Assembly (NCBI GenBank): GCA_011773845.1
Contig: WVWV01000125.1
Span: 33,425-68,361 of the forward strand
Length of the DNA stretch: 34,937 bases
Source of the DNA: Lysobacterales bacterium
GTDB taxonomy: Bacteria > Pseudomonadota > Gammaproteobacteria > Xanthomonadales > SZUA-36
Direction: 5' to 3'
The notes beneath the pieces were generated by a model. It ran no database searches, was not told the DNA's origin, and was given only the letters and a program-made list of their open reading frames with translations. Within the stretch, counting starts at the first letter, position 1; every line of letters begins with the position of its first letter. This document shows positions 14,849-31,773 of the stretch, one piece after another. The position numbers and the translations under genes were made by a program.

Positions 14849-15709
14849 TCAGTACAGCAGTTCGACCCACCGGCCCTCGTTGCGCAGCGCGGCCTTCTTC
14901 TCTTCCCAGACGGCCTTGCCGTACAGATCGCCGAACAGGCGGTCGAGCTCATCGCGTATGCGTCGCTGTCCGGCGACGTAGACATAGGTGTGGTCGTCGT
15001 CCAGCATGTCCCGGATTTCCCCGATGCGGTCCTCGATGGCGTAATCCCAGGCGATCGGGTCGGCCCAGTTCGGCCGCGGGCTGAGCGCCTTGAACGCCTC
15101 GAAGGTCTCCTCGTCGTAGTAATTGCTGAAGTCGTCGCGCCGGTCGTTCATGTACAGCAGCTCGAGGCCCGTATGCGCGCCATAGAGCAGGCGGACCTTG
15201 CCCTGCCAGTCGCGGACGTCCCGGTAGATGTGCTTGACCAGCGCACGGAAGGGGGCGATGCCGGTGCCGAGGCCGATCAGCAACAGGTTGGCGGTACGGT
15301 CGTCAGGCACCTTGAAGGGCATGCCGAAGGGCCCGGTGATCGTCACCCTGTCGCCGGTTTTGCGGTCACACAGGTAATTCGAATTGACCCCCACGTATTC
15401 TTCCCCGCTGTAATCGTCGAGGTAACTGCAACGGCGCACGACGATCGTGATCTCGGGCCTGCCGTCCTGGCTGGGGGACGGCAGGTCGGCGACCGTGTAG
15501 AGCCGATGGTGGATCGGGTGCCCGAATTCCTCGGCACCTTCGACCAGCACCCCGATGCTCTGGCCGATCTCGAAATTGAAATCGTGCTCGTCCACGGCCA
15601 TCACCAGTTCGCGGACCTCGACGTCCGCCCCGTCTTCGGTGAGCGCCTCGGTGCTGAGTACCGTGGCCGTATACCGTGGTTCTGTCGGATAGTCCTGCAG
15701 ACGCATCAT
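14849..15709 (-). CDS. fpr: Ferredoxin-NADP+ reductase, plant-like type
   Basis: A 286-residue flavoprotein of the FNR family that exchanges electrons between ferredoxin and NADP(H). The FAD-binding block HHRLYTVADLP lies near residue 70, GDRVTITGPFG near 120, and the NADP-binding loop LIGLGTGIAPFRA near 145. A later strand HTYVYVAGQ precedes the C-terminal WVELLY, whose terminal Tyr would stack on FAD. The C-terminal ending and the loop before it resemble plastid-type FNRs more than the Escherichia Fpr type. AAGGAG is eight bases before ATG 15709, fixing the start. It follows the small Cys-rich gene by 22 bases and is the last gene of the rnf/nifJ operon, so it probably ties the same ferredoxin pool to NADPH. 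Confidence 0.85.
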   Translation of the reverse strand: MMRLQDYPTEPRYTATVLSTEALTEDGADVEVRELVMAVDEHDFNFEIGQSIGVLVEGAEEFGHPIHHRLYTVADLPSPSQDGRPEITIVVRRCSYLDDYSGEEYVGVNSNYLCDRKTGDRVTITGPFGMPFKVPDDRTANLLLIGLGTGIAPFRALVKHIYRDVRDWQGKVRLLYGAHTGLELLYMNDRRDDFSNYYDEETFEAFKALSPRPNWADPIAWDYAIEDRIGEIRDMLDDDHTYVYVAGQRRIRDELDRLFGDLYGKAVWEEKKAALRNEGRWVELLY

Positions 15710-15731: not shown

Positions 15732-15923
15732 TCAGTCCGGGCGGGCCGGTCGCCCTTCCACGGCGGCCCTGAGCCCCCCGCAACCGCCTGCGCAATCGGA
15801 TTGGCCAGCGGGTTCCTCGCAGTCCGTGGGCCGCCGCTTTCCGCCGCGCTCGACGGACGTGCCCAACACCGCCAGCACGGCGATGAAGGCCGTCGCGAAC
15901 ACCAGCTGGAGCAGGACGCTCAT
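15732..15923 (-). CDS. Small Cys-rich single-span membrane protein (NqrM-like?)
   Basis: A 63-residue protein directly after rnfA, with its ATG (15921-15923) overlapping the rnfA stop (ATGA). One hydrophobic helix (residues 3-22) is followed by a basic turn (ERGGKRR) and a cluster Cys35-x8-Cys44-x3-Cys48, ending CGGL and a disordered tail. The layout, one membrane helix then a Cys-rich cytoplasmic tail, resembles NqrM, the factor needed to install the intramembrane iron centre of Na+-NQR. RnfA and RnfE hold the homologous centre. Function as an Rnf cluster-assembly factor is inference; direct homology to NqrM is not established. A FeoB-associated Cys-rich type is the main alternative. Confidence 0.65.
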   Translation of the reverse strand: MSVLLQLVFATAFIAVLAVLGTSVERGGKRRPTDCEEPAGQSDCAGGCGGLRAAVEGRPARPD

Positions 15924-16501
15924 CGCCCCAGCCCCGCGAAACCCATGAAGCCCATCGACAGGATGCCGGCCACGATCAGCGCGGCGGCCGTGCCCTTGAC
16001 CAGCTCGGGCACATTCGCGAGGTCCAGCTTTTCGCGCACCCCGGCCATGAGGACCAGCGCCAGGGCGAAACCGGCGCCGGCGCCCAGGGCGTAGACCAGG
16101 CACTGGATGAAGTCGTAGCCGCGGTTGGTCTGGAACAGCGCCAGCCCGAGGATCGCGCAGTTGGTCGTGATCAGCGGCAGGAAGATGCCCAGCGCCCGGA
16201 AGGTGGGCGGGCTGAGTTTTTTCATCAGCATCTCGACCAGTTGCACGGTGGACGAGATGACCAGAATGTAGGAAATGATCCGCAGATACGGAGCGCCGAC
16301 CGCTTCCAGCAGGATGTTGATCAGGTAGGCGCACACCGACGCCACCAGCATCACGAAACTCGCCGCTCCGCCCATCCGCACCGCGGTGTCCAGCTTGGCG
16401 GAAACGCCGAGGAACGGGCAGATGCCCAGGAAATAGGCCAGCACGAAGTTGTTGATCAGGGCCGAGTTCAGGAAGATGGACCAGACCGACGCATCATTCA
16501 T
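15920..16501 (-). CDS. rnfA: Rnf complex membrane subunit RnfA
   Basis: A 193-residue six-helix membrane protein, standard RnfA/NqrE size. With RnfE it forms an inverted-topology pair that holds an intramembrane iron-sulfur centre. The half-membrane cysteines are visible in FLGICPFLGVSAKLD (near residue 28) and ITTNCAILGLAL (near 115). The ATG at 16501 overlaps the rnfE stop (ATGA). Its own stop overlaps the small Cys-rich gene. Confidence 0.95.
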   Translation of the reverse strand: MNDASVWSIFLNSALINNFVLAYFLGICPFLGVSAKLDTAVRMGGAASFVMLVASVCAYLINILLEAVGAPYLRIISYILVISSTVQLVEMLMKKLSPPTFRALGIFLPLITTNCAILGLALFQTNRGYDFIQCLVYALGAGAGFALALVLMAGVREKLDLANVPELVKGTAAALIVAGILSMGFMGFAGLGR

Positions 16502-17139
16502 GACGCCACCTCCTCGGCCCGGCCGGCGGCCTCCGCCTCACGTTTCTTCAGCCAGTTCACCAGCAGCAGCCAGACGGCCATGGCCAGGAAGCCGCCGCTC
16601 GGCAGCACCATGATGGTCCAGGCCTGGAAGCCGTCCGGGAACAGCCCGACGCCGAACAGCGTGCCGCTGCCGAGGATCTCCCGCACGATGCCGATGAAAA
16701 ACAGCGCGCCGGTAAAGCCCGCACCCATGCCCAGCGCATCCAGGATCGCCCGGCCCGGGTGGTGCTTGGAGGCGAATGCCTCAGAGCGGCCGAGGATGAG
16801 GCAATTCACCACGATCAGGGCGATGAAGGCGCCCAACGCGCGATGCAGTTCGATGCTGATCGCCATGATGGCGTAGTCCACGCAGGTCACGAAGGTGGCG
16901 ATGATGCAGATGTAACTGACGATCCGCGCCTCGCGCGGGATGAAATGGCGCAGCAGCGACACGGACAGGCCCGCCATCACCAGCACGAAAGTGGTTGCGA
17001 GCCCCATGGCCAGTGCGTTGATCGCGGTGTTGGACACGGCCAGCGCCGGGCACATGCCGAGCACCTGCACGAACACCGGGTTGTCCCGCCACAGGCCCTT
17101 GACGAACTCGTCGGTGGGGGTGACCGGCTTGATCGCCAC
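16498..17139 (-). CDS. rnfE: Rnf complex membrane subunit RnfE
   Basis: A 213-residue six-helix membrane subunit homologous to NqrD and paired with RnfA. The conserved cysteines lie in QVLGMCPALAVSN (near residue 30) and IVVNCLILGRSEA (near 112). It starts with GTG directly abutting the rnfG stop (TAAGTG), and GGGGAGG inside the end of rnfG is its ribosome site. The basic C-terminal tail (WLKKREAEAAGRAEEVAS) is typical of the family. Confidence 0.94.
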   Translation of the reverse strand: MAIKPVTPTDEFVKGLWRDNPVFVQVLGMCPALAVSNTAINALAMGLATTFVLVMAGLSVSLLRHFIPREARIVSYICIIATFVTCVDYAIMAISIELHRALGAFIALIVVNCLILGRSEAFASKHHPGRAILDALGMGAGFTGALFFIGIVREILGSGTLFGVGLFPDGFQAWTIMVLPSGGFLAMAVWLLLVNWLKKREAEAAGRAEEVAS

Positions 17140-17832
17140 TTATGAATCCTCCCCGTCCGACACCGGCGTCAACGACAATGCGTCGCGCTCCAGCACCGGT
17201 ATCCAGAGGTTGGCGCTCGCGTTCAGGATGTCGCCGATCGCCACCGAGGTGATGGTGGCGCCGGTGATGCCATCGAGTTGCCAGGGCTCGGTTTTTGCAC
17301 CCTCCTTGACCGTGACGATCGGGTTGGCCAGCGCCGTGCCATCCGCGTTCAGGCTCGCGTCCAGTGCTTCGAAGTTGGCGAGGAAGTGCGGTTCGATCTC
17401 GATCTTGTCGCCGAGTCCGGGCGTTTCCTTGCTGTCCAGCACCTTGAAGCCGACGATCGCATCGATCTCGAACGAGTAGGAGTAGAGCACGCGGATGTTG
17501 TCCTGGTAGCCCATGCCCTGGGCGGTGATCACCGCGCCGGTCAGCGCGCCGCTTGCGTCGTAACCGAGGAACACGGGCAACGCCGGCACCCCGGAGGTTG
17601 GCACCAGGCGCCCGGCAGCGTCCATGCCCACGGACACGGTCGTGTGTGCCGCGGGCAGGACCTCGGCTACCGCCCGGGCCAGGAAACGCGCCTGGTTGGC
17701 GGCGATGCGGTCCGCGGTGGCGACGAACACCGTCACGATCAACAGCGCGCACAGCGCGCCGATGCCGACGATGGAGCGGTACATTTTCCATGCCGGCGTG
17801 CGCTCGAACTGGACGGGGGCCGGGCCGTTCAT
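17140..17832 (-). CDS. rnfG: Rnf complex FMN-carrying subunit RnfG
   Basis: A 230-residue subunit with one N-terminal membrane helix (about 20-40) and a periplasmic FMN-binding domain. The flavinylation motif DGITGAT (D-x-x-[ST]-G-A-T) ends at about Thr193, the expected site of covalent FMN attachment by ApbE. The domain also shows FLGYDASGALTGAVITAQGMGYQD (here quoted as FLGYDASG and AQGMGYQD) and ETPGLGDKI, characteristic of RnfG/NqrC. The ATG at 17832 overlaps the rnfD stop (ATGA). The longer upstream reading is in the wrong frame for rnfD and is rejected. Confidence 0.94.
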   Translation of the reverse strand: MNGPAPVQFERTPAWKMYRSIVGIGALCALLIVTVFVATADRIAANQARFLARAVAEVLPAAHTTVSVGMDAAGRLVPTSGVPALPVFLGYDASGALTGAVITAQGMGYQDNIRVLYSYSFEIDAIVGFKVLDSKETPGLGDKIEIEPHFLANFEALDASLNADGTALANPIVTVKEGAKTEPWQLDGITGATITSVAIGDILNASANLWIPVLERDALSLTPVSDGEDS

Positions 17833-18848
17833 TGCACGCCCCTGCCGGTGCCGTACACCCGCGGCTGGATGAGGTTGTCGATGTGCGGCGAGACCGCGTT
17901 GGCCAGCAGGATGGCGTACATCACGCCCTCGGGCATACCGCCCCAGAAGCGGATGACCACCACCAGCACGCCGATGAGCACGCCATACAGCCAGCAACCC
18001 GGGTTGGTGATGGGTGATGCGACCATGTCGGTCGCCATGAACACCGCGCCCAGCATCAGGCCGCCGGAGAACAGCATGAACAGGGGGCCCGGATACGTGG
18101 CCGGATCGATCTGCTGGAAGATCCAGGTCATCACCGCCACGGCCATGAAGATCGAGACCGGTATGCGCCAGTTCATGAAGTTGCGCACCACCAGGTACAG
18201 CCCGCCCAGTAGGATCAGGACTCCGCAGGTCTCACCCACGGAGCCGGTGGTCAGCCCGGCCATCAATTCCGGGGTCTCGGCGAAGAGGGCCTCGAACTTC
18301 ATCCGGGCCAGCGGGGTCGCCGCGGTGGCCGCGTCGTAGGCGGGCTCGGCAAACGGCATGGCCAGCACGGAAGTCGGGACCTGCTCGAAACGGTTCTCGA
18401 GGAACGGGTATTGCCAGTGGGTCATGGCCTGCGGAAACGCGGCCTGCAGAAAGGCCCGCCCGACCAGCGCGGGATTGAAGGCGTTGCTGCCCAGGCCGCC
18501 GAACAGGAACTTGCCGATGCCCACGCCGAACACGCCGCCGACCGCGACCATCCACAGCGGCAGGCCGGGCGGCAGCGTCAGGCCGTAGAGCAGGCCGGTG
18601 ATCGCCACCGACCAGTCGCCGACCGTGCTGGGCGCCCCGGTGGCCTTGCACAGCAGGTGCTCGGTCAGGATGCAGGAGATGGTGGCCGTTGCCAGCACCA
18701 GCGCCGCGCCGATGCCAAATGCGTAAATGGCGAACACGGTCACCGGCAGCAGCGCCAGGAACACGTTGCGCATGATGACGTCGACGCTCGCGCCGTCGGT
18801 GATGTGCGGCGAGGAGCCGATCTCGAGATATTTCTTCAATTCGGCCAT
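17829..18848 (-). CDS. rnfD: Rnf complex membrane subunit RnfD
   Basis: A 339-residue membrane subunit (NqrB-like) with about ten hydrophobic segments. The covalent FMN site is visible as DAATAATPLARM, with Thr178 as the acceptor (the same motif class as RnfG, with Ala for Gly). FGGLGSNAFNPALVGRAFL and MLGAVFMATDMVASPIT are other family blocks. The ATG at 18848 overlaps the rnfC stop by one base (TGATG). MAELKKYLEIGSSPHI is a typical RnfD N-terminus, which rules out the longer reading. Confidence 0.94.
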   Translation of the reverse strand: MAELKKYLEIGSSPHITDGASVDVIMRNVFLALLPVTVFAIYAFGIGAALVLATATISCILTEHLLCKATGAPSTVGDWSVAITGLLYGLTLPPGLPLWMVAVGGVFGVGIGKFLFGGLGSNAFNPALVGRAFLQAAFPQAMTHWQYPFLENRFEQVPTSVLAMPFAEPAYDAATAATPLARMKFEALFAETPELMAGLTTGSVGETCGVLILLGGLYLVVRNFMNWRIPVSIFMAVAVMTWIFQQIDPATYPGPLFMLFSGGLMLGAVFMATDMVASPITNPGCWLYGVLIGVLVVVIRFWGGMPEGVMYAILLANAVSPHIDNLIQPRVYGTGRGVQ

Positions 18849-20191
18849 CACGCGGCGCTCAGCTTGCGGACCATCTTCTTGGCGAGGCGGAAGTACTGCA
18901 CCAGCGGAATGTGCGACGGGCAGACGTAGGAGCAGGCGCCGCACTCGAAGCAGTCCATCAGGTGGTACTCCTCCGCCATGCGCTCGTATTCCTCAACCTT
19001 GGCCAGCAGGCCGAGCTGGGAGGGGTTGAGAAAGATCGGGCAGGCCTCCACGCAACGCGCGCAGTGGATGCAGGGGTAGACCTTTCGGTGCCCGGTGGCC
19101 TCGCCGGTTTCCGCCGTCGTAAACGCGATGATGCCCGAGGTGCCCTTGGTGATCGGGATATCGAGGTTCGAGACCGACGGACCCATCATCGGGCCGCCCA
19201 TGAACACGCGCGAGATGTTGTCCGCCGCGCCGCAGGCCTCCAGTGCGAACCGCACGGGCGTGCCAATGGGGATGCGGTAATTGCCCCGCTTCGCCACGCC
19301 CGGCCCGCCAATCGTGATGACGCGCTCCTGTATGCCGCGCCCGCGCGGCAGGAGACGGCCGATCTCGGCGGTGGTGGCCACGTTGCAGCAGATCGCGTTG
19401 ATGTCCGCCGGCAGGCCGCCGGAGGGCACCTCGCGGCCGAGCAGCGCGCTGAAGACCATCTTCTCTGCGCCTTGCGGGTACTTGACGGGGGAGACCCGCA
19501 CGGTGACCGGCAGGTCTCCCGGGCAGCCCTGGCGCAACCGGTCCGCGGCATCCGGCTTGTTGGCCTCGATGGCGATGATCACCTCGCGGGTGCCGGTGGC
19601 CTTCAGCAGGTAGCGGATGCCCATGAAGATGTCGTCCGTCTGCTCGAGCATCACGCGGTGGTCGGTGGTCAGGTAGGGCTCGCACTCGACGCCGTTGATG
19701 AACAGCGTGTCGAGCTGCTTGCCTTCCGGCGGCTTCAGCTTGACGTGCGTGGGAAACGCCGCGCCGCCCAGCCCGACGATGCCGGCCCGCTGGATCGCCT
19801 GGACGATTTCATCGGGCGTGGCCGTATCCAGCGGGCAGGGCTCGCCGTCGTCCACCTCCTGCGTGGAGGCGGGAAACGGTTCGATGAATACGCTCGGGAT
19901 CATGTGGCCGGCAATGCTCGGCGCCAGCGTGATGCGCCGAACCATGCCCGAGGCTGGCGCGTGCATGGCAACCGATACGAAGCCGTCCGCCTCCGCAATG
20001 GTTTCCCCGCGGATCACTTCCTGGCCCTCGCGCACCACGGGCCTGGCCGGCTTGCCGAGGTGCTGGCTCAACGGCACGATCAGGACGGGCGCAAAGGGGA
20101 ACTGGCGGATCGGCAGGTGCGCCGTGTCGTCCTTGTTTTCCGGTGGATGCACCCCGTGCCGGAAGGTATTTTTACGCGCGAAATGCAGCAT
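18848..20191 (-). CDS. rnfC: Rnf complex NADH-linked Fe-S subunit RnfC
   Basis: A 447-residue peripheral subunit that carries the NAD(H) site with FMN, plus two [4Fe-4S] clusters. Seen: HGVHPPENKDDTA at the N-terminus, GLGGAAFPTHVKL near 150 and INGVECEPYL near 168 (Complex-I 51-kDa-like nucleotide/FMN region), GGPMMG near 330, then ferredoxin-type motifs C374-x2-C-x2-C-x3-CP and C414-x2-C-x2-C-x3-CP. Length is close to the compact clostridial/Bacteroidetes form, without the long Ala-rich tail of enterobacterial RsxC. The ATG at 20191 follows GAGGCGG. It lies 33 bases after nifJ, so is likely co-transcribed with it. Confidence 0.94.
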   Translation of the reverse strand: MLHFARKNTFRHGVHPPENKDDTAHLPIRQFPFAPVLIVPLSQHLGKPARPVVREGQEVIRGETIAEADGFVSVAMHAPASGMVRRITLAPSIAGHMIPSVFIEPFPASTQEVDDGEPCPLDTATPDEIVQAIQRAGIVGLGGAAFPTHVKLKPPEGKQLDTLFINGVECEPYLTTDHRVMLEQTDDIFMGIRYLLKATGTREVIIAIEANKPDAADRLRQGCPGDLPVTVRVSPVKYPQGAEKMVFSALLGREVPSGGLPADINAICCNVATTAEIGRLLPRGRGIQERVITIGGPGVAKRGNYRIPIGTPVRFALEACGAADNISRVFMGGPMMGPSVSNLDIPITKGTSGIIAFTTAETGEATGHRKVYPCIHCARCVEACPIFLNPSQLGLLAKVEEYERMAEEYHLMDCFECGACSYVCPSHIPLVQYFRLAKKMVRKLSAA

Positions 20192-20224
20192 GCCGCCTCG
20201 GTCGCCCTGGTTACGGGCCCTCCG

Positions 20225-23200
20225 TCAGTTGTACTTCTGTCCCCGCTTGATCCACTTTCCGATGTCCTTTGCGCTGCGGTCGCGCGGCAGGCCGGGGTGG
20301 ATGATCTCCGCGGTGCATTTCTCCGCGGCCTTGACCAGATCGCGGTAGGGCCCGCCGTCGGGGTTCTTGATGATCGCCTTCTTGTCGGCGTTGTACTCGA
20401 AGATGTTCGGATTGATCAGGATGCACTCGTCACATTCCGTGCAGTCCTCGGTGTCGATCCACGGCGCCATGTACTCGCCCGCGGCCGCAGCCGGGGCGGG
20501 TGCTGGCGTCTCCACCACCGCCAACTTCGGTTTTTCCGCGGGCGCCGGCGCCGCCACCGCCCCGGTTTCCAGCAGCGCCCCCACGTCCAGGGCCGGGCTG
20601 CCGCCGACCAGGCCCATGAGGCCGGAGGCGATCTTCTGCACCACTTCCTGGCGGATGCGGGATTCGATCTGCGAGGCATCGCTCACCGCCTCATCCGCTG
20701 CCATGCCGGCAAGATCGCGCAGCATTCTCCAGAAGGCGCGACGGTCCTCGGCCGAGCGAATCATGGGCGCGGCGACCAGCAGGCGACTGAGTTGTTGCCT
20801 GGCGTCCAGCGACCACACATAGGGCACCTTGCCCTCGCGCTCGTCCTCGTCCATTTCGAGGTATTCGCTTACCAGCACCATGTCCTGGTGCCATGCGTCG
20901 CGCGGAATCTTTCGAAAGTGCTTGCGGAAGCGCGTTTCGGTGACCGCGAAATCGACGAAGGTCGTGGGCAGGTCCATTTCCTTCTCGCGGCCCTGTTCGA
21001 CGTAGCTGATTTTCGCCACTGGCCAGTCGAGGTCTGGCGCCGGGTTGCCGTCCAGGTCGATACACTCGGCCACCGTCTCGCCCCGATCGGGATCGTAGCG
21101 CATCAGCGGGTAGGCGCGGGACTCGACCGCCAGCCTGGACTGGTGGTGCGACATGTCGTCGCCGATACCGTGTTCGGGCTGGCAGGAGGAATAGAGGTTG
21201 AAGAGCGCTGGGCGCCGCGACATCAGGCCCTGGACGAAGCCCTCGATCATGTGGTTGGCGTGCGCCATGGTCGACTGCATGTAGTAGGTGGTCCGGTGCG
21301 CGATGGCGATCAGGCCCATTTCCTTGCGCACCTCTTCCTTGCCCTTGATGGCCTTGCCGAATTGCGCCATGTCGGAAATCTGGCCGAAGAAGCCGGACGT
21401 GCAGGCCTGGCCGCCGGTGTTGGAATACACCTGCGTGTCCACCACCAGCACCTTGATCGGCTTGCCGGACATCATGGCCCGCGAGAGGTTCTGGAAGCCG
21501 ATGTCGTACATCGCACCGTCGCCGCCCACGGCCACCACCGGCGGACACAGGTTGAATTCGTCACTCGAGAAATCTTCCCAGCCGAAGTACTGGTAGGCCT
21601 CGGCGAAGCCCTGCGGGTCGAAGCGGTCCTTGAGCAGTTCCTCGGCGATGCGCAGCGTCTTGAAGCCGTCCGCCATCTTCGCCATGTGCCCCTCGAACAC
21701 GCCCATGGCCATGGACGCCGGATCCTGGAACAGGTGGTTCGCCCACGGGAAGGGGTAGGGGTTGTACGGGTAGGTGCTGCCCCACACGGAGGTGCAGCCG
21801 GTGGCGTTGAGGATGCCCATGCTGGACCGGCCCTTGCCGGTCGTGCCGTTCTCGTAACGCCATTTCAGGTCGTTCAGCTTTGCCACGATGTCGGTGACGT
21901 ATTGCAGCCACTCGCGGTCGATGGGCTCCGCCTCATGGGCTCGCTCCATCCGCTCGGCCAGCGTGGCCAGGGTCAGTTCGCCATCGCTGTCGTCACCCAG
22001 CGCGGCCTGCATCTCGGCCGCGTCGCCGATGTCGATCTCGCCGACCAGCTTCATCTGTACGTGATGCTTGAGCTTCCTGACCAGCTCGTCGATGCGCGCG
22101 ACGTGCTTCGCCACGCGCGGTTGCATGAGCGACTCGACGGTCGCGATGAACAGGTGCACGACGGTTTTCTCACCGCATCCCAGGCAGGAGCCGTCGCCGC
22201 TCGCGAACGGCAGGTAGGCGTTCTTGTTGAGCAGGATGGTTTCCAGCGCCCCGATGCCTTCCTCCAGGTTGTCCACGCGGATGTATTTCTCCGGCGTGTT
22301 TGGCAGGTCGAGCCAGAACTCCCAGTTCCGGCGCAGGTCCGCGACGGATTCGCGGGTCTGGGTGACCGCGCGCAGCGCATCGTCGTTACAGACTTCCACG
22401 CACTCCATGCAGCCCTTGCAGGTGTAGGGGTTGACGGTGATGCTCAGCAGCCCGCCGCTGCCCGCCTGCTTCTTCTCAGGGTTGGTGAAGTAGGGGCGGC
22501 ACAGGGCGAACTGGAAGCTGCCCAGTTCTTCCCGAAAGCCCTGGAACTCCTCCGTCAGCGCCTGCTTCGCGTCCGCCTCGTAGCCATCGATGGTTTGCCC
22601 GATGGCCTGTTCGATCATCTCCGACACGGCATCGGTTTCCGCCGCGGCAGTGAGCAGCTTGCGCAGCTTGCCTTCCATCTGACGCGTGGCGCGCGGCAGG
22701 TGCTCGACCGGCTTGCCGCGTTTCCTGAGGCGCTGGACCACCGTATCCAGCACCTGCCCAACCTCGTTGACCAGGCCGGGAATGGCCGTATCCGGGCATA
22801 CCGTGTAACAGTCGCCGCACCCGGTGCAGTTCTCGGGGATGAATTCGGGATGTTCGAAGCGGATGCCGGTCATGTCGCGGAAATGCGAGGAAACCGCCGG
22901 CATCAGGCTCATGCTCATGAACGGGTCGGCGGGGATGTTCTCGCCCTGGCCGGAGGCGTACATGCTGCCGGTTTGCGACCAGAAGCGGTGGATGTCGGAC
23001 GACGGCATCGACGATTGCGGTTCGCGCTTGACCATGATCGGGATGGGCAGCTGGGCGGCGGCGGCATCCCTCGCCTCGCCGATCGGCTTTTCGCTCACCT
23101 CGATGATCTCGTCGAAGCCGCGCCGGACCACGCGCATGTTGTCGTCGACCACGCGCTGGCCCTTGGAACCGAACTTGTGCTGCAGCTGGTCCTTGATGGC

Positions 23201-25180
23201 GTCGAGCAGGGTTTCTTCGGTCAGTCCGTGCTTGTCGAGCAGCGGCGAGGCCGCGAAGAAGGCGCCCTGGAAGGCGATACCCTGCATGCGGAGCTGCAGC
23301 TCGGGGTCGGTCGCCTCGTCCCGGGCGATGCGAAAGGCATCGAGGTAGAACACCCGGATGTCGTTGTCGACGATCTCCTTGCGGTAGCGGTGCGGTATCG
23401 CGCTCCAGAACTCTTCCTCGCTGGCGGCATCGCTCTGCATCACCAGCACGCCGCCCTGCTTCAGGCCGGCCAGCGCATTGGTGTGCTGGAACACGTTCGG
23501 GTCCGGTGACAGCACGACGTCCACGTAGAAGTATTCGCAATTCACGCGGATGGGCTCGGGCGCCGCGGACAGGTAGTAACTGGTCGGCTGACCCTTCTTC
23601 TCCGAGCCGTACTTCGGATTGGCCTTGATGTGGTAGCCGAGCAGGTCGAACAGCGTCATCGCCAGGTTCTTGCCGGTGGTGATGGCGCCCCAGCCGCCGA
23701 CGGAGTGGAAGCGCACGGTGATGCTGTCCTTGGGCATCAGGTTCGGGTTCTCGCTGCCGCGCAGCGCCAGGTCGGCGACCTCCGGGTAGGCATCGAGCAC
23801 CGACTGGTTATAGATCTCCTGCTTGGGCGTCATCATGCCCTTGCGCACGAAATCGATGGACAGATAGAACATGCGCTTTTGTTTGCCGTCCGGCAGCATG
23901 TTCTCGATGGCGGCGACCACCCCCTCGGGCTGCAGGTCGCGACTGCCGAGGCCGAACGATCCGGAATAGAATTCCGGCATGTCCTGCAACGAGGCGTAGC
24001 TGGCCAGGTCGGGGTGCGCCTTGCCATTACCCCTGCGCCCGTTCTCCAGGCACTTGCCCAGCGTGGCGCGAATCTCGCGCATCAACGGCAGATCCGCCGC
24101 CAGTGGCTGATCGGTGCGCTCCAGCACCGCCACGCCCTTTTTGCCCTGTAGCGCCTGGCTGAGCAGGTCGCCGGGAAACGGCCGGAACATCACCAGGTTG
24201 ACCACGCCGACCTTGATGCCGCGCTCCTCGCGCAGCCAGTCGGCGACCGCCTCGGCGGTGGGGATCAGGCTGCCCTGGCCGACGATCAGGTAATCGGCAT
24301 CGTCCGCGCGGTGGGTCATCACGCGCCGGTAATCGCGGCCCGTCAGCGCGCCGAACTCCGCCATGGCCTGGTCCGCCAGGTCCTTGAGGTGATCGAAGAA
24401 ATACGGCCGTTGCGCGGCCACGCTTTGCATGTAGGAATCCTGGTTCTGCACCGGGCCGGCCAGCACCGGGTCGTCGACCGTCCACAGTTCCGGGATGCGG
24501 CGGCGCCGTTCGCCATAGATGATTCGTTGCGCGGGGGTCGGCGTATCGATGATGTCCTCGGGCCGGCCAAGATACTCGGCGATCAGTTCGCGTTCGGGGA
24601 GCAGCAGGGACTCGATCAGGTGCGTGGTGAGGAAGCCGTCCTGGGCGACGACGCCCGGCGTCAGCGCCAGCTCGGCGATGCGGTGGGCGATGATGTTGAG
24701 GTCCGCGACGTGCTGCGCGTTCTTGGCGAAGACCTGGAAGAAGCCCGTGTCGTCGACGCAGTGGTAGTCGTCGTGGCCCGCGTGCACGTTCAGGGACGCC
24801 TTGGTCATGGCCCGGCAGCCGATGTTCAGCACATAGGTGAGGCGCTTGCCCACCGCCGCGTAGAGATTCTCGTGCATGTAGGCGATGCCCTGGCCGGACG
24901 AGAAGTTGGCCGCCCGCAGGCCGGTCATGGCCATGCCCGCCGTCACCGCGGCGGCGGCGTGCTCGCCCTCGGGCTCGATGAAGATCAGCGGCCGCCCGGA
25001 GACGTTGATGTGCCCCGCCGCGGCGGCCTCGGCCCAGTACTCGCCCATCTGGGTCGAGGGCGTGATCGGGTAGGCGCCGGCGGCGTCGGTGGATTCGCGC
25101 TCGCACATGATGACGGCGGTGTTGCCGTCCATCGCCGCGCGCGTACCGGGGTACCTGAACCTGTCTTGCTGCTTCTTCAT
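20225..25180 (-). CDS. nifJ: Oversized pyruvate:ferredoxin (flavodoxin) oxidoreductase with extra C-terminal ferredoxin-like domain
   Basis: A 1651-residue single-chain 2-oxoacid:ferredoxin oxidoreductase (usual length about 1170-1200) that interconverts pyruvate plus CoA with acetyl-CoA, CO2 and reduced ferredoxin. Order: N-terminal domain (YPGTRAAMDGNTA, YPITPST near 38); domain II to about 420; gamma domain (FHSVGGWGAITTGKN) and EKR segment (SEKKGQPTSYYL); ferredoxin motifs C785-C795 and C921-C931; proximal-cluster CLGC (999, 1002), GCTS Cys1129 and SSCQPEHG Cys1333; TPP-binding GGDGAMYDIG near 1219 with YSNTGGQ. Compared with family spacing, about 125 residues separate the two ferredoxin motifs and about 127 separate Cys1002 from Cys1129. 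After an Ala/Pro linker (about 1520-1565) a single-cluster ferredoxin-like domain is added (C1580, C1583, C1586, C1622). ATG 25180 begins 16 bases past rnfB. Substrate could be another 2-oxoacid. Confidence 0.9.
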   Translation of the reverse strand: MKKQQDRFRYPGTRAAMDGNTAVIMCERESTDAAGAYPITPSTQMGEYWAEAAAAGHINVSGRPLIFIEPEGEHAAAAVTAGMAMTGLRAANFSSGQGIAYMHENLYAAVGKRLTYVLNIGCRAMTKASLNVHAGHDDYHCVDDTGFFQVFAKNAQHVADLNIIAHRIAELALTPGVVAQDGFLTTHLIESLLLPERELIAEYLGRPEDIIDTPTPAQRIIYGERRRRIPELWTVDDPVLAGPVQNQDSYMQSVAAQRPYFFDHLKDLADQAMAEFGALTGRDYRRVMTHRADDADYLIVGQGSLIPTAEAVADWLREERGIKVGVVNLVMFRPFPGDLLSQALQGKKGVAVLERTDQPLAADLPLMREIRATLGKCLENGRRGNGKAHPDLASYASLQDMPEFYSGSFGLGSRDLQPEGVVAAIENMLPDGKQKRMFYLSIDFVRKGMMTPKQEIYNQSVLDAYPEVADLALRGSENPNLMPKDSITVRFHSVGGWGAITTGKNLAMTLFDLLGYHIKANPKYGSEKKGQPTSYYLSAAPEPIRVNCEYFYVDVVLSPDPNVFQHTNALAGLKQGGVLVMQSDAASEEEFWSAIPHRYRKEIVDNDIRVFYLDAFRIARDEATDPELQLRMQGIAFQGAFFAASPLLDKHGLTEETLLDAIKDQLQHKFGSKGQRVVDDNMRVVRRGFDEIIEVSEKPIGEARDAAAAQLPIPIMVKREPQSSMPSSDIHRFWSQTGSMYASGQGENIPADPFMSMSLMPAVSSHFRDMTGIRFEHPEFIPENCTGCGDCYTVCPDTAIPGLVNEVGQVLDTVVQRLRKRGKPVEHLPRATRQMEGKLRKLLTAAAETDAVSEMIEQAIGQTIDGYEADAKQALTEEFQGFREELGSFQFALCRPYFTNPEKKQAGSGGLLSITVNPYTCKGCMECVEVCNDDALRAVTQTRESVADLRRNWEFWLDLPNTPEKYIRVDNLEEGIGALETILLNKNAYLPFASGDGSCLGCGEKTVVHLFIATVESLMQPRVAKHVARIDELVRKLKHHVQMKLVGEIDIGDAAEMQAALGDDSDGELTLATLAERMERAHEAEPIDREWLQYVTDIVAKLNDLKWRYENGTTGKGRSSMGILNATGCTSVWGSTYPYNPYPFPWANHLFQDPASMAMGVFEGHMAKMADGFKTLRIAEELLKDRFDPQGFAEAYQYFGWEDFSSDEFNLCPPVVAVGGDGAMYDIGFQNLSRAMMSGKPIKVLVVDTQVYSNTGGQACTSGFFGQISDMAQFGKAIKGKEEVRKEMGLIAIAHRTTYYMQSTMAHANHMIEGFVQGLMSRRPALFNLYSSCQPEHGIGDDMSHHQSRLAVESRAYPLMRYDPDRGETVAECIDLDGNPAPDLDWPVAKISYVEQGREKEMDLPTTFVDFAVTETRFRKHFRKIPRDAWHQDMVLVSEYLEMDEDEREGKVPYVWSLDARQQLSRLLVAAPMIRSAEDRRAFWRMLRDLAGMAADEAVSDASQIESRIRQEVVQKIASGLMGLVGGSPALDVGALLETGAVAAPAPAEKPKLAVVETPAPAPAAAAGEYMAPWIDTEDCTECDECILINPNIFEYNADKKAIIKNPDGGPYRDLVKAAEKCTAEIIHPGLPRDRSAKDIGKWIKRGQKYN

Positions 25181-25196
25181 GACCTGGTCTGTCCGT

Positions 25197-26054
25197 CTAG
25201 GTATTGATCGCTTGCCGTGAACCCTGCCGCAGGACCCGCCGTGCCGCACGGCCGGTCACCGGGCCTTCCTTCTCATCCCACCAGATGATCGCGCCGGTGG
25301 GGCAGCGCTCGATGGCCGCTCGCACATCGTGGTTCCGGCCGTAATCGACGACCGGCAGGTTGTTGACCATGGTGACGGCGCCGGGGGCGTCCGCCGCGCA
25401 TCGCGCGCAGGCGTCGCAACCGACCTCGCAGTCCTCGAGCACCTTTTCGCCCTTTTCCAGGTTCTTGCAGGCCACCCACAGGCGGTGGCTGACCGGGTGC
25501 AGCGAGAACAGGTCCTTGGGGCAGGCGTCCACGCAGTCGCCGCAGGCCGTGCACCGGTCCTCGACGACCACGGGCAGGCCGTGCTCGTTCATGTAGATGG
25601 CATCGAGATCGCAGACCGCTTCGCAGTCGCCCAGCCCCAGGCAGCCCCAGAAACAGGCCTTGCCGCCGCCCGCCACCAGTTCGGCGGCACGGCAGGAGGG
25701 CAGGCCCTCGTAGTGGGCGCGGTTCCTGGCCGTGTTCGTGCCGCCGGCGCAGGCCAGCCGGGCCACCACTTTCTCCTCCGCGCCCGCGTCGACGCCGAGG
25801 AACTCGGCCACCTGTTCGCGCTCGTCCTCCGACATGACGGTGCACTTCCCGGGCAAGACCTCACCCGCAACCAGCGCCTCGGAAAGCCCGAGGCATCCGG
25901 GATAGCCGCAGGCGCCACAGTTGGTGCCCGGCAGCATCTGCTGTACCGCGTCGATGCGCGGATCCTCGTCCACGTGCAGGAAGCGGTGCGCCACCACCAG
26001 CAGCGTGGCAAAGACAAAGCACAGCGATGCCAGTGTCAGTACTGCTATCGACAT
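25197..26054 (-). CDS. rnfB: Rnf complex polyferredoxin subunit RnfB, long form
   Basis: A 285-residue RnfB: N-terminal membrane helix (residues 3-22), then an Fe-S domain C46-x2-C49-x4-C54-x16-C71. A conserved Cys-containing linker follows (C102, C121), then a two-cluster ferredoxin domain (C134, C138, C144, C148 and C168, C171, C174, C178). A second ferredoxin-like domain retains only C213, C216, C219 and C251. It accepts electrons from ferredoxin and passes them to the rest of Rnf. The length and KACFWGCLGLGDC block match the long clostridial/Bacteroidetes form, not the roughly 190-residue enterobacterial one. The start at 26054 has GAGG just upstream. First gene after the 144-base gap from the HdrA-like gene, and followed by nifJ instead of rnfC. 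Confidence 0.93.
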   Translation of the reverse strand: MSIAVLTLASLCFVFATLLVVAHRFLHVDEDPRIDAVQQMLPGTNCGACGYPGCLGLSEALVAGEVLPGKCTVMSEDEREQVAEFLGVDAGAEEKVVARLACAGGTNTARNRAHYEGLPSCRAAELVAGGGKACFWGCLGLGDCEAVCDLDAIYMNEHGLPVVVEDRCTACGDCVDACPKDLFSLHPVSHRLWVACKNLEKGEKVLEDCEVGCDACARCAADAPGAVTMVNNLPVVDYGRNHDVRAAIERCPTGAIIWWDEKEGPVTGRAARRVLRQGSRQAINT

Positions 26055-30559: not shown

Positions 30560-30711
30560 GGCTTGCCTCGGGTTGTATCACCATGTGAGAAAAATCGGAT
30601 TTGCATGGAATAATAGCCCTTTTCACGGACCATTCCACGGATATTGATGCACTTAATTGCCATAAATCAATTGGCGAAAAAAAATGTCTTCAACTCAAGG
30701 GATTACATAGG
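30560..30711. promoter_or_regulatory. AT-rich divergent control region between kor and apbE
   Basis: A clearly AT-rich stretch in a G+C-rich window. It contains an ATTGAT (30643-30648) / ATCAAT (30666-30671) inverted repeat with 17-base spacer, a nested AATTG/CAATT pair, and an eight-base A-tract (30676-30683). TATTAT on the minus strand (complement of AATAAT near 30609-30616) is a possible -10 for kor. No convincing -35 partner is seen on either strand. Confidence 0.45.
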
Positions 30712-31773
30712 GTGAATCCGCCCCTGATACGCCACTGGAGCCTGCCCGGGGGGCTTTTCGCGGCGCTTCTCGCGATGGCCGTGGCCGGATGCCGCGGGGA
30801 GTTGGAGCACGCCTCGGACATGTATGCCTTCGGCACCATCGTGGAGGTGAGGCTGTGGGGCGCAGAGCCGGAGCGCGCCCAGCGCGCCATGGCCGACCTG
30901 CAACAGATGTTCCAGCGCATGCACCGGGACTGGCACGCCTGGGAAGCGGGCCGGTTGACGGACCTCAACAAGGCTTTCGCCGAAGGCCGCTCCGTCGAAG
31001 CGCCTGCGGACATCGTTGAAATGGTGCGGCGCTCCCGCCATTACGAAAGTCTCACGGAGGGCCGGTTCAACCCGGCCATCGGGGGGTTGATCGCCTTGTG
31101 GGGCTTTCACACCTCGACATTCCCGGTCACCGGCCCGCCCCCTAGCCGGGCGCAGGTCGAAGCTTTGCTGGCCGGTCGGCCCTCCAGCCTGGACATCAGC
31201 GTGAGCGGATTGCAGGTGCATTCATCCAACCCGCACGTGCAACTGGACTTCGGTGGCATCGCCAAGGGTTTTGCGGTGGACCTCGCCATCGGACATTTGC
31301 GCGAGCTCGGCATCGAAAACGCCATCGTCAACGCGGGCGGCGACCTGCGTGCGATGGGTGACCATGGAGATCGGCCCTGGCGCGTGGCCATCCGCCAGCC
31401 CGGTGGCGGCGTCATCGGGGCGGTGGAGGTGGTGGGCGATGAATCGCTGTTCACTTCGGGCAACTATGAGCGCTTTCGTGCGCAGGGGGCAAGCCGCTAC
31501 CCGCACATCCTCGATCCGCGTACGGGCTGGCCGGCAGAAGACCTGGCGTCGGTCACCGTGATTACCTCCGAGGGTACGCTTGCGGATGTGGCAGCCACCG
31601 CGTTGATCGTCGCCGGCCCGGATGACTGGCCGGAGGTGGCGCGGGCCCTCGCACTGGACCAGGTGCTGGTGATCGATGCGGCCGGCACGGTGCATCTGAC
31701 CCCGGCCATGGCGGAGCGGGTCCGATTCGTGGAGGATGTCGAGCGCCGCATCATCGACCTGCCAGGGGTGTAA
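30712..31773 (+). CDS. apbE: FAD:protein FMN transferase ApbE
   Basis: A 353-residue lipoprotein (signal with lipobox AVAGC, Cys27) of the ApbE family, which attaches FMN through a phosphodiester bond to Thr in the D-x-x-[ST]-G-A-T motif of RnfD, RnfG, NqrB and NqrC in the periplasm. Family blocks: MYAFGTIVEV near 38, FNPAIGGL near 120, DFGGIAKGFAVDLA near 180, NAGGDLRAMGDH near 208, HILDPRTGWPA near 265, and GTLADVAATALIV near 288. The GTG at 30712 is chosen because AAGGGA lies nine bases upstream and the signal peptide starts there; the longer frame lacks a signal. It diverges from the kor operon, and its substrates are likely the RnfD and RnfG encoded 12-14 kb away. Confidence 0.93.
   Translation: MNPPLIRHWSLPGGLFAALLAMAVAGCRGELEHASDMYAFGTIVEVRLWGAEPERAQRAMADLQQMFQRMHRDWHAWEAGRLTDLNKAFAEGRSVEAPADIVEMVRRSRHYESLTEGRFNPAIGGLIALWGFHTSTFPVTGPPPSRAQVEALLAGRPSSLDISVSGLQVHSSNPHVQLDFGGIAKGFAVDLAIGHLRELGIENAIVNAGGDLRAMGDHGDRPWRVAIRQPGGGVIGAVEVVGDESLFTSGNYERFRAQGASRYPHILDPRTGWPAEDLASVTVITSEGTLADVAATALIVAGPDDWPEVARALALDQVLVIDAAGTVHLTPAMAERVRFVEDVERRIIDLPGV

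Follow-up and report, generated by a model that had tools for sequence, protein, structure and literature searches.

Genes at the Locus

The window, i.e., the whole stretch of 34,937 nucleotides that was analyzed, belongs to a gammaproteobacterial genome of 2.7 Mb that is about 90% complete. Its minus strand carries, in one direction, rnfB–nifJ–rnfC–D–G–E–A; behind rnfA lie a small ORF for a Cys-rich membrane protein and the gene of an FNR-type flavoprotein. The features are as follows:

25197..26054, minus strand: rnfB, 285 aa; N-terminal helix, FeS domain, 2x[4Fe-4S] domain and a last domain
20225..25180, minus strand: nifJ, long 2-oxoacid (pyruvate):ferredoxin oxidoreductase, 1651 aa
22421..22795, minus strand: NifJ stretch 796-920, between the two domain-V [4Fe-4S] motifs
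21797..22174, minus strand: NifJ stretch 1003-1128, between the proximal-cluster cysteines
20462..20614, minus strand: NifJ linker, residues 1523-1573, Ala/Pro-rich, predicted to be disordered
20228..20461, minus strand: NifJ C-terminal tethered ferredoxin domain (the arm), with Cys 1580, 1583, 1586 and 1622
18848..20191, minus strand: rnfC, 447 aa; Complex1_51K/SLBB and 2x[4Fe-4S]
17829..18848, minus strand: rnfD
17140..17832, minus strand: rnfG; FMN_bind domain, with a TGATIT flavinylation-type motif visible in the sequence
16498..17139, minus strand: rnfE
15920..16501, minus strand: rnfA
15732..15923, minus strand: small ORF, 63 aa; its start overlaps the rnfA stop
about 14849..15709, minus strand: FNR-family flavoprotein (PetH/BoxA-like)

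The gene calls confirmed the original prediction that nifJ lies between rnfB and rnfC on a single strand, with 16 nt between RnfB and NifJ and 33 nt between NifJ and RnfC. Two details had to be corrected. First, the lower boundary had been set at 15732; rnfA stops at 15920, and it is the small ORF that ends at 15732. Second, the cluster had been described as rnfB-nifJ-rnfCDGEA alone, which missed the FNR gene and the small ORF, both of which belong to the conserved cluster.

All six Rnf subunits (A, B, C, D, G and E) are encoded together at the locus. RnfA, RnfB, RnfC, RnfD and RnfE passed their NCBIfam subfamily cut-offs, while RnfG remained under its own (81.5 vs. 102 bits), yet possesses the FMN_bind domain. 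The Complex1_51K domain of RnfC is the FMN/NADH module and is accompanied by the two [4Fe-4S] clusters.

Directly upstream of rnfB, after a gap of 144 nt, a group of Kor-type 2-oxoacid:acceptor oxidoreductase genes (alpha, beta and gamma), followed by a gene for an HdrA-like FAD/Fe-S protein, occupies positions 30194-26199 (minus strand). In relatives, Kor-type genes were found in either orientation or were missing. Since their orientation and presence vary, the Kor genes were dropped as a candidate part of the module. Divergent from them, at 30601-31773 (plus strand), lies a gene for an ApbE-type FAD:protein FMN transferase that scored under the curated cut-off; ApbE-type enzymes are the kind that flavinylates RnfG and RnfD. 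Directly after the FNR gene, positions 14650-13436 (minus strand) encode a protein resembling FAD-dependent ferredoxin--NAD(+) reductases (dioxygenase reductase family).

The host genome also holds a separate Rnf (contig C16), an Nqr (C25) and a pyruvate dehydrogenase (PDH; C42, 1469 bits). Thus, the module is a specialized addition and not the sole pyruvate or ferredoxin route of this bacterium.

Conservation of the Gene Order

Scanning a single genome of each bacterial or archaeal species yielded at least 591 stretches coding for NifJ relatives. The best 80 of these (at least 591) and loci from related genomes formed the locus set, to which all counts in this section refer; some loci are near-duplicates (one contig was reached twice), and the counts are slightly too high. 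Linkage to rnfC was counted only for loci with at least 900 nt downstream of nifJ. In this set, rnfC was located directly 3' of nifJ on the same strand in 83 of 84 loci. Its recurrence in these homologues shows that the order is not due to chance. The rnfB gene directly preceded nifJ in 52 of 85 loci of the set, and in 21 of the 22 others with at least 6.5 kb downstream it was found behind the FNR gene. The latter is the Bacteroidota order, nifJ-rnfCDGEA-(ORF)-FNR-rnfB, with rnfB relocated behind the FNR gene. The FNR gene followed rnfA in 52/62 loci of the same set. The median gaps among the loci were 18 nt between RnfB and NifJ and 14 nt between NifJ and RnfC.

The hosts belong to at least eight phyla as labelled, i.e., Gammaproteobacteria, Bacteroidota, Calditrichota, Myxococcota, Planctomycetota, Verrucomicrobiota, Acidobacteriota and Hydrogenedentota. 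Conserved rnfB-nifJ-rnfC synteny in relatives, the lack of which had been named as speaking against the original prediction, was thus clearly present. The closest named relatives among the matches listed are labelled Woeseiaceae, with a NifJ about 81% identical. The module order was also observed in cultured isolates, among them the Bacteroidota Flagellimonas lutimaris, Polaribacter sp. Hel1_85 and Marivirga sericea and one Planctomycetota isolate, Rubripirellula obstinata. Because these show the identical order, an artefact of assembly or binning was ruled out.

Variants of the order were found as well. In clade B of the long NifJs (full-length identity of 44-50%), the order is korAB-X-rnfB-nifJ-rnfCDGEA, and an FNR gene is missing. 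A third NifJ-like protein of only about 25% identity occupies the same slot in Calditrichota (rnfB-nifJ-rnfCDGEA). Locus L083 encodes a NifJ that is not adjoined by Rnf genes, and an RnfC of 64% identity is encoded on another contig of that genome. In locus L097, which is just below the 900-nt limit and outside the 84, the FNR gene immediately follows nifJ, and the RnfC of that genome is only 48% identical. An acidobacterial locus (L107, 5396-9364) reads nifJ-rnfC-rnfD-rnfG-FNR, with rnfE and rnfA absent between rnfG and the FNR gene.

A description of nifJ inside an rnf operon was not found in the literature searched, although an earlier mention is possible. The papers on Caldithrix (rnfBCDGEA) and Melioribacter (rnfCDGEAB) give the rnf genes without nifJ.

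A Long NifJ with a Tethered Ferredoxin Domain

With 1651 aa as compared to about 1200 for a usual PFOR, NifJ contains about 420 extra residues. It is a single chain with POR_N, PFOR_II, POR, Fer4 and TPP domains, in which the catalytic residues T40, E73, R123 and N1254 are conserved and the twelve cluster cysteines are kept. Its score in TIGR02176 was 417 bits, with the equivalog cut-off at 911. NifJ is hence no canonical PFOR; judged by its domains and catalytic residues, it would work as one, though outside that equivalog.

The structure model of NifJ, spanning residues 452-1651 (pLDDT 75, pTM 0.76), predicted two helical insertions relative to canonical PFOR. The first, within residues 796-920, comprises four helices; the second, within 1003-1128, contains a helix of 45 residues. 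The linker was predicted to be disordered (block pLDDT of about 30-50). Across homologues it is 32-78 residues long and rich in Ala and Pro. Beyond this linker, the arm was folded in the model, and its cysteines 1580, 1583, 1586 and 1622 were invariant in 94 sequences. When the arm alone was used as the phmmer query, ferredoxin I of D. africanus and ferredoxin II of D. gigas were the top matches (E about 6e-5). Ferredoxin I of D. africanus also appeared in the Foldseek list for the NifJ model with a TM score of 0.85, a list printed without the aligned region. In D. africanus, this ferredoxin is a partner of PFOR.

The presence of the arm was compared with linkage to Rnf for long NifJs that were complete and had 400 nt or more of downstream sequence. 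The arm was present in 95/96 Rnf-linked long NifJs. Eight were scored as unlinked: three of them carried the arm (L060, L083 and L097; L060 is located at a contig end), and five did not. The five armless proteins are all the adequately flanked members of one Planctomycetota clade of long NifJs (L257-L263; 35-41% identical), with neither RnfB nor RnfC adjoining. Since 95 of 96 linked proteins have the arm and five unlinked Planctomycetota proteins lack it, the arm accompanies Rnf linkage, a contrast that rests mainly on this one unlinked clade.

The clade C NifJs of Calditrichota (L186 and L187) are Rnf-linked and have no fused arm. Just upstream of rnfB, these loci encode a beta-like protein that ends in a ferredoxin domain (L186, 1-2059; L187, 3776-6151). 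Apparently, the arm is carried on a separate subunit in Calditrichota.

Parallel Divergence of NifJ and Its Neighbours

The pairwise identities of NifJ correlated with those of RnfC (r of 0.886), RnfB (0.885) and FNR (0.916) in Mantel tests, and none of 999 permutations matched these correlations. As a shared species history also yields correlated identities, the correlations speak for joint inheritance and not for contact. The RnfC tree set the module apart from canonical Rnf, to which the second Rnf of the host belongs, with a support of 0.90, and the canonical RnfC of the host is 36% identical to the RnfC of the module. The RnfD tree agreed weakly with this split (0.27).

RnfB, FNR and the Small ORF

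The last domain of the module RnfB keeps one of two canonical clusters. One cluster of the C. tetanomorphum RnfB was kept in none of the 84 NifJ-linked RnfBs. Among further Bacteroidota RnfBs, 10 of 22 were without it too, and NifJ was not found in the examined contexts of these cluster-lacking proteins. Thus, the loss is not specific, and the idea that it compensates for the NifJ arm was rejected. RnfB has a flexible ferredoxin-like domain, which published structures show with poor resolution (PMC12174285).

The FNR protein belongs to the ferredoxin-NADP+ reductase sequence family (E of 3e-34), and its nearest solved relatives are ferredoxin-NADP reductases. Among the residues for the 2'-phosphate of NADP, the Ser is kept, while the Lys/Arg and the Tyr were not aligned. 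The protein was also considered as an ancestor of NqrF, and this was rejected as BoxA and PetH score better than NqrF.

The small ORF encodes one hydrophobic helix followed by cysteines. Most relatives have counterparts of 45-77 aa with a CxxCxC...C tail. A Pfam search gave no match to the small ORF at any useful score; its clade B counterpart weakly resembles FeoB_associated. Assignment as NqrM (DUF539) was dropped for want of a Pfam match, the likeness being one of layout only. Possibly, the small ORF encodes a maturation factor like NqrM.

Proposed Mechanism and Alternatives

The original prediction that NifJ is dedicated to Rnf and might hand over electrons to RnfB without free ferredoxin was upheld in part. 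It gained strong, though indirect, support from the synteny in at least eight phyla, the divergence in parallel with RnfC, RnfB and FNR, the invariant ferredoxin domain fused by a disordered linker and the armless unlinked clade of long NifJs. Taken together, we consider it fairly probable that the module is a conserved pyruvate-oxidizing ion pump, i.e., an Rnf with its own PFOR, whose tethered ferredoxin would feed RnfB.

In this mechanism, NifJ would use CoA to oxidize pyruvate or a closely related 2-oxoacid. The electrons would pass via the three internal [4Fe-4S] clusters of NifJ to the C-terminal ferredoxin domain, which may swing on its linker of 32-78 residues and deliver them to RnfB in place of a soluble ferredoxin. 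Their path from RnfB would lead via RnfA/E, RnfG, RnfD and RnfC to NAD+, and Na+ or H+ would be exported in parallel. A probable side exit from the same ferredoxin to NAD(P)+ would be the FNR-type protein. The arm could equally well dock on FNR instead. PFORs are usually oxygen-sensitive, and several module hosts come from genera known to be aerobic, which counts against a pyruvate-driven pump.

A stronger form of the proposal, to which we give slightly less than an even chance, is that PFOR and Rnf form a stable supercomplex whose tethered ferredoxin takes the place of the diffusible carrier. Oxidation of the 2-oxoacid would then itself pump ions as a step of respiration (a pyruvate:NAD+ ion pump), and such pumps would be widespread among bacteria, aerobes included. 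Ordinarily, a diffusible ferredoxin connects PFOR with Rnf, and most discussion of Rnf concerns anaerobes and diazotrophs. If true, respiration would have an uncharacterized entry point in the fixed PFOR-Rnf unit with its tethered ferredoxin, and pyruvate a second route of oxidation, conserving energy that PDH wastes, even in genera known as aerobes. This variant of Rnf and PFOR is easy to test, and its linked and unlinked relatives offer a natural system for testing how electrons enter Rnf.

The direction of flow is not fixed by sequence, and both Rnf and PFOR are known to be reversible. NADH and the ion gradient might therefore drive electrons via Rnf and RnfB to the NifJ arm, with NifJ acting as a pyruvate synthase for CO2 fixation or anaplerosis. 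PDH already covers the oxidative direction, and a Kor-type 2-oxoacid oxidoreductase adjoins the module in the window and in several relatives, both in favour of the reverse mode. However, many hosts are from genera known to be heterotrophic, and the host genome already has a separate Rnf; we regard the reverse mode as a less likely possibility.

Clustering for co-regulation only, with NifJ reducing a common pool of soluble ferredoxin that Rnf then uses, would match how PFOR and Rnf are known to operate in fermenters (e.g., PMC12174285). The fusion of the ferredoxin, an order that hardly varies across at least eight phyla and the armless unlinked clade argue against it and make this explanation rather doubtful.

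If the arm served FNR, the main product would be NADPH from pyruvate, and Rnf would balance NADH against reduced ferredoxin. This would agree with the position of the FNR gene after rnfA in most loci, with the divergence of FNR, which parallels that of NifJ best, and with its solved relatives. However, in the divergent clade B the arm and Rnf occur without FNR, and the motif for the 2'-phosphate of NADP is kept only in part within the aligned region; an arm dedicated to FNR seems quite improbable. Finally, a supply of electrons to nitrogenase by NifJ and Rnf, as their names and established classical roles would suggest, was largely refuted and is hardly credible, since no NifH above the cut-off was detected in the host genome (about 90% complete) and many hosts come from genera without known nitrogen fixers.

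Comparison with Known Systems

The module has all six subunits in common with the Rnf complexes of C. tetanomorphum (7zc6) and A. woodii (9eri). Its RnfB is of the long type, with 9eri and 7zc6 as the best PDB matches, but lacks one [4Fe-4S] cluster as compared to 7zc6. It differs from the Rnf complex further by nifJ after rnfB or before rnfC and by the FNR gene and the small Cys-rich ORF after rnfA. With the homomeric PFORs of D. africanus (1b0p) and M. thermoacetica (6cin), NifJ shares the domain order, the TPP-site residues and three [4Fe-4S] clusters; in contrast to these, it bears the roughly 420 additional residues, the two helical insertions and the tethered ferredoxin domain, and it scores under the NCBIfam cut-off.

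The CDGEA core with a nearby FNR-family protein and a small TM/Cys protein resembles nqrABCDEF-nqrM of Na+-NQR (NqrABCDEF with NqrM). Unlike Na+-NQR, the module retains RnfB, and its FNR lacks the [2Fe-2S] domain of NqrF and is nearer to PetH/BoxA. Rnf1 of A. vinelandii with RnfH likewise combines Rnf with an extra cytoplasmic subunit (PMC12174285). RnfH has no redox cofactor (PMC12174285), whereas the extra protein of the module is a redox enzyme.
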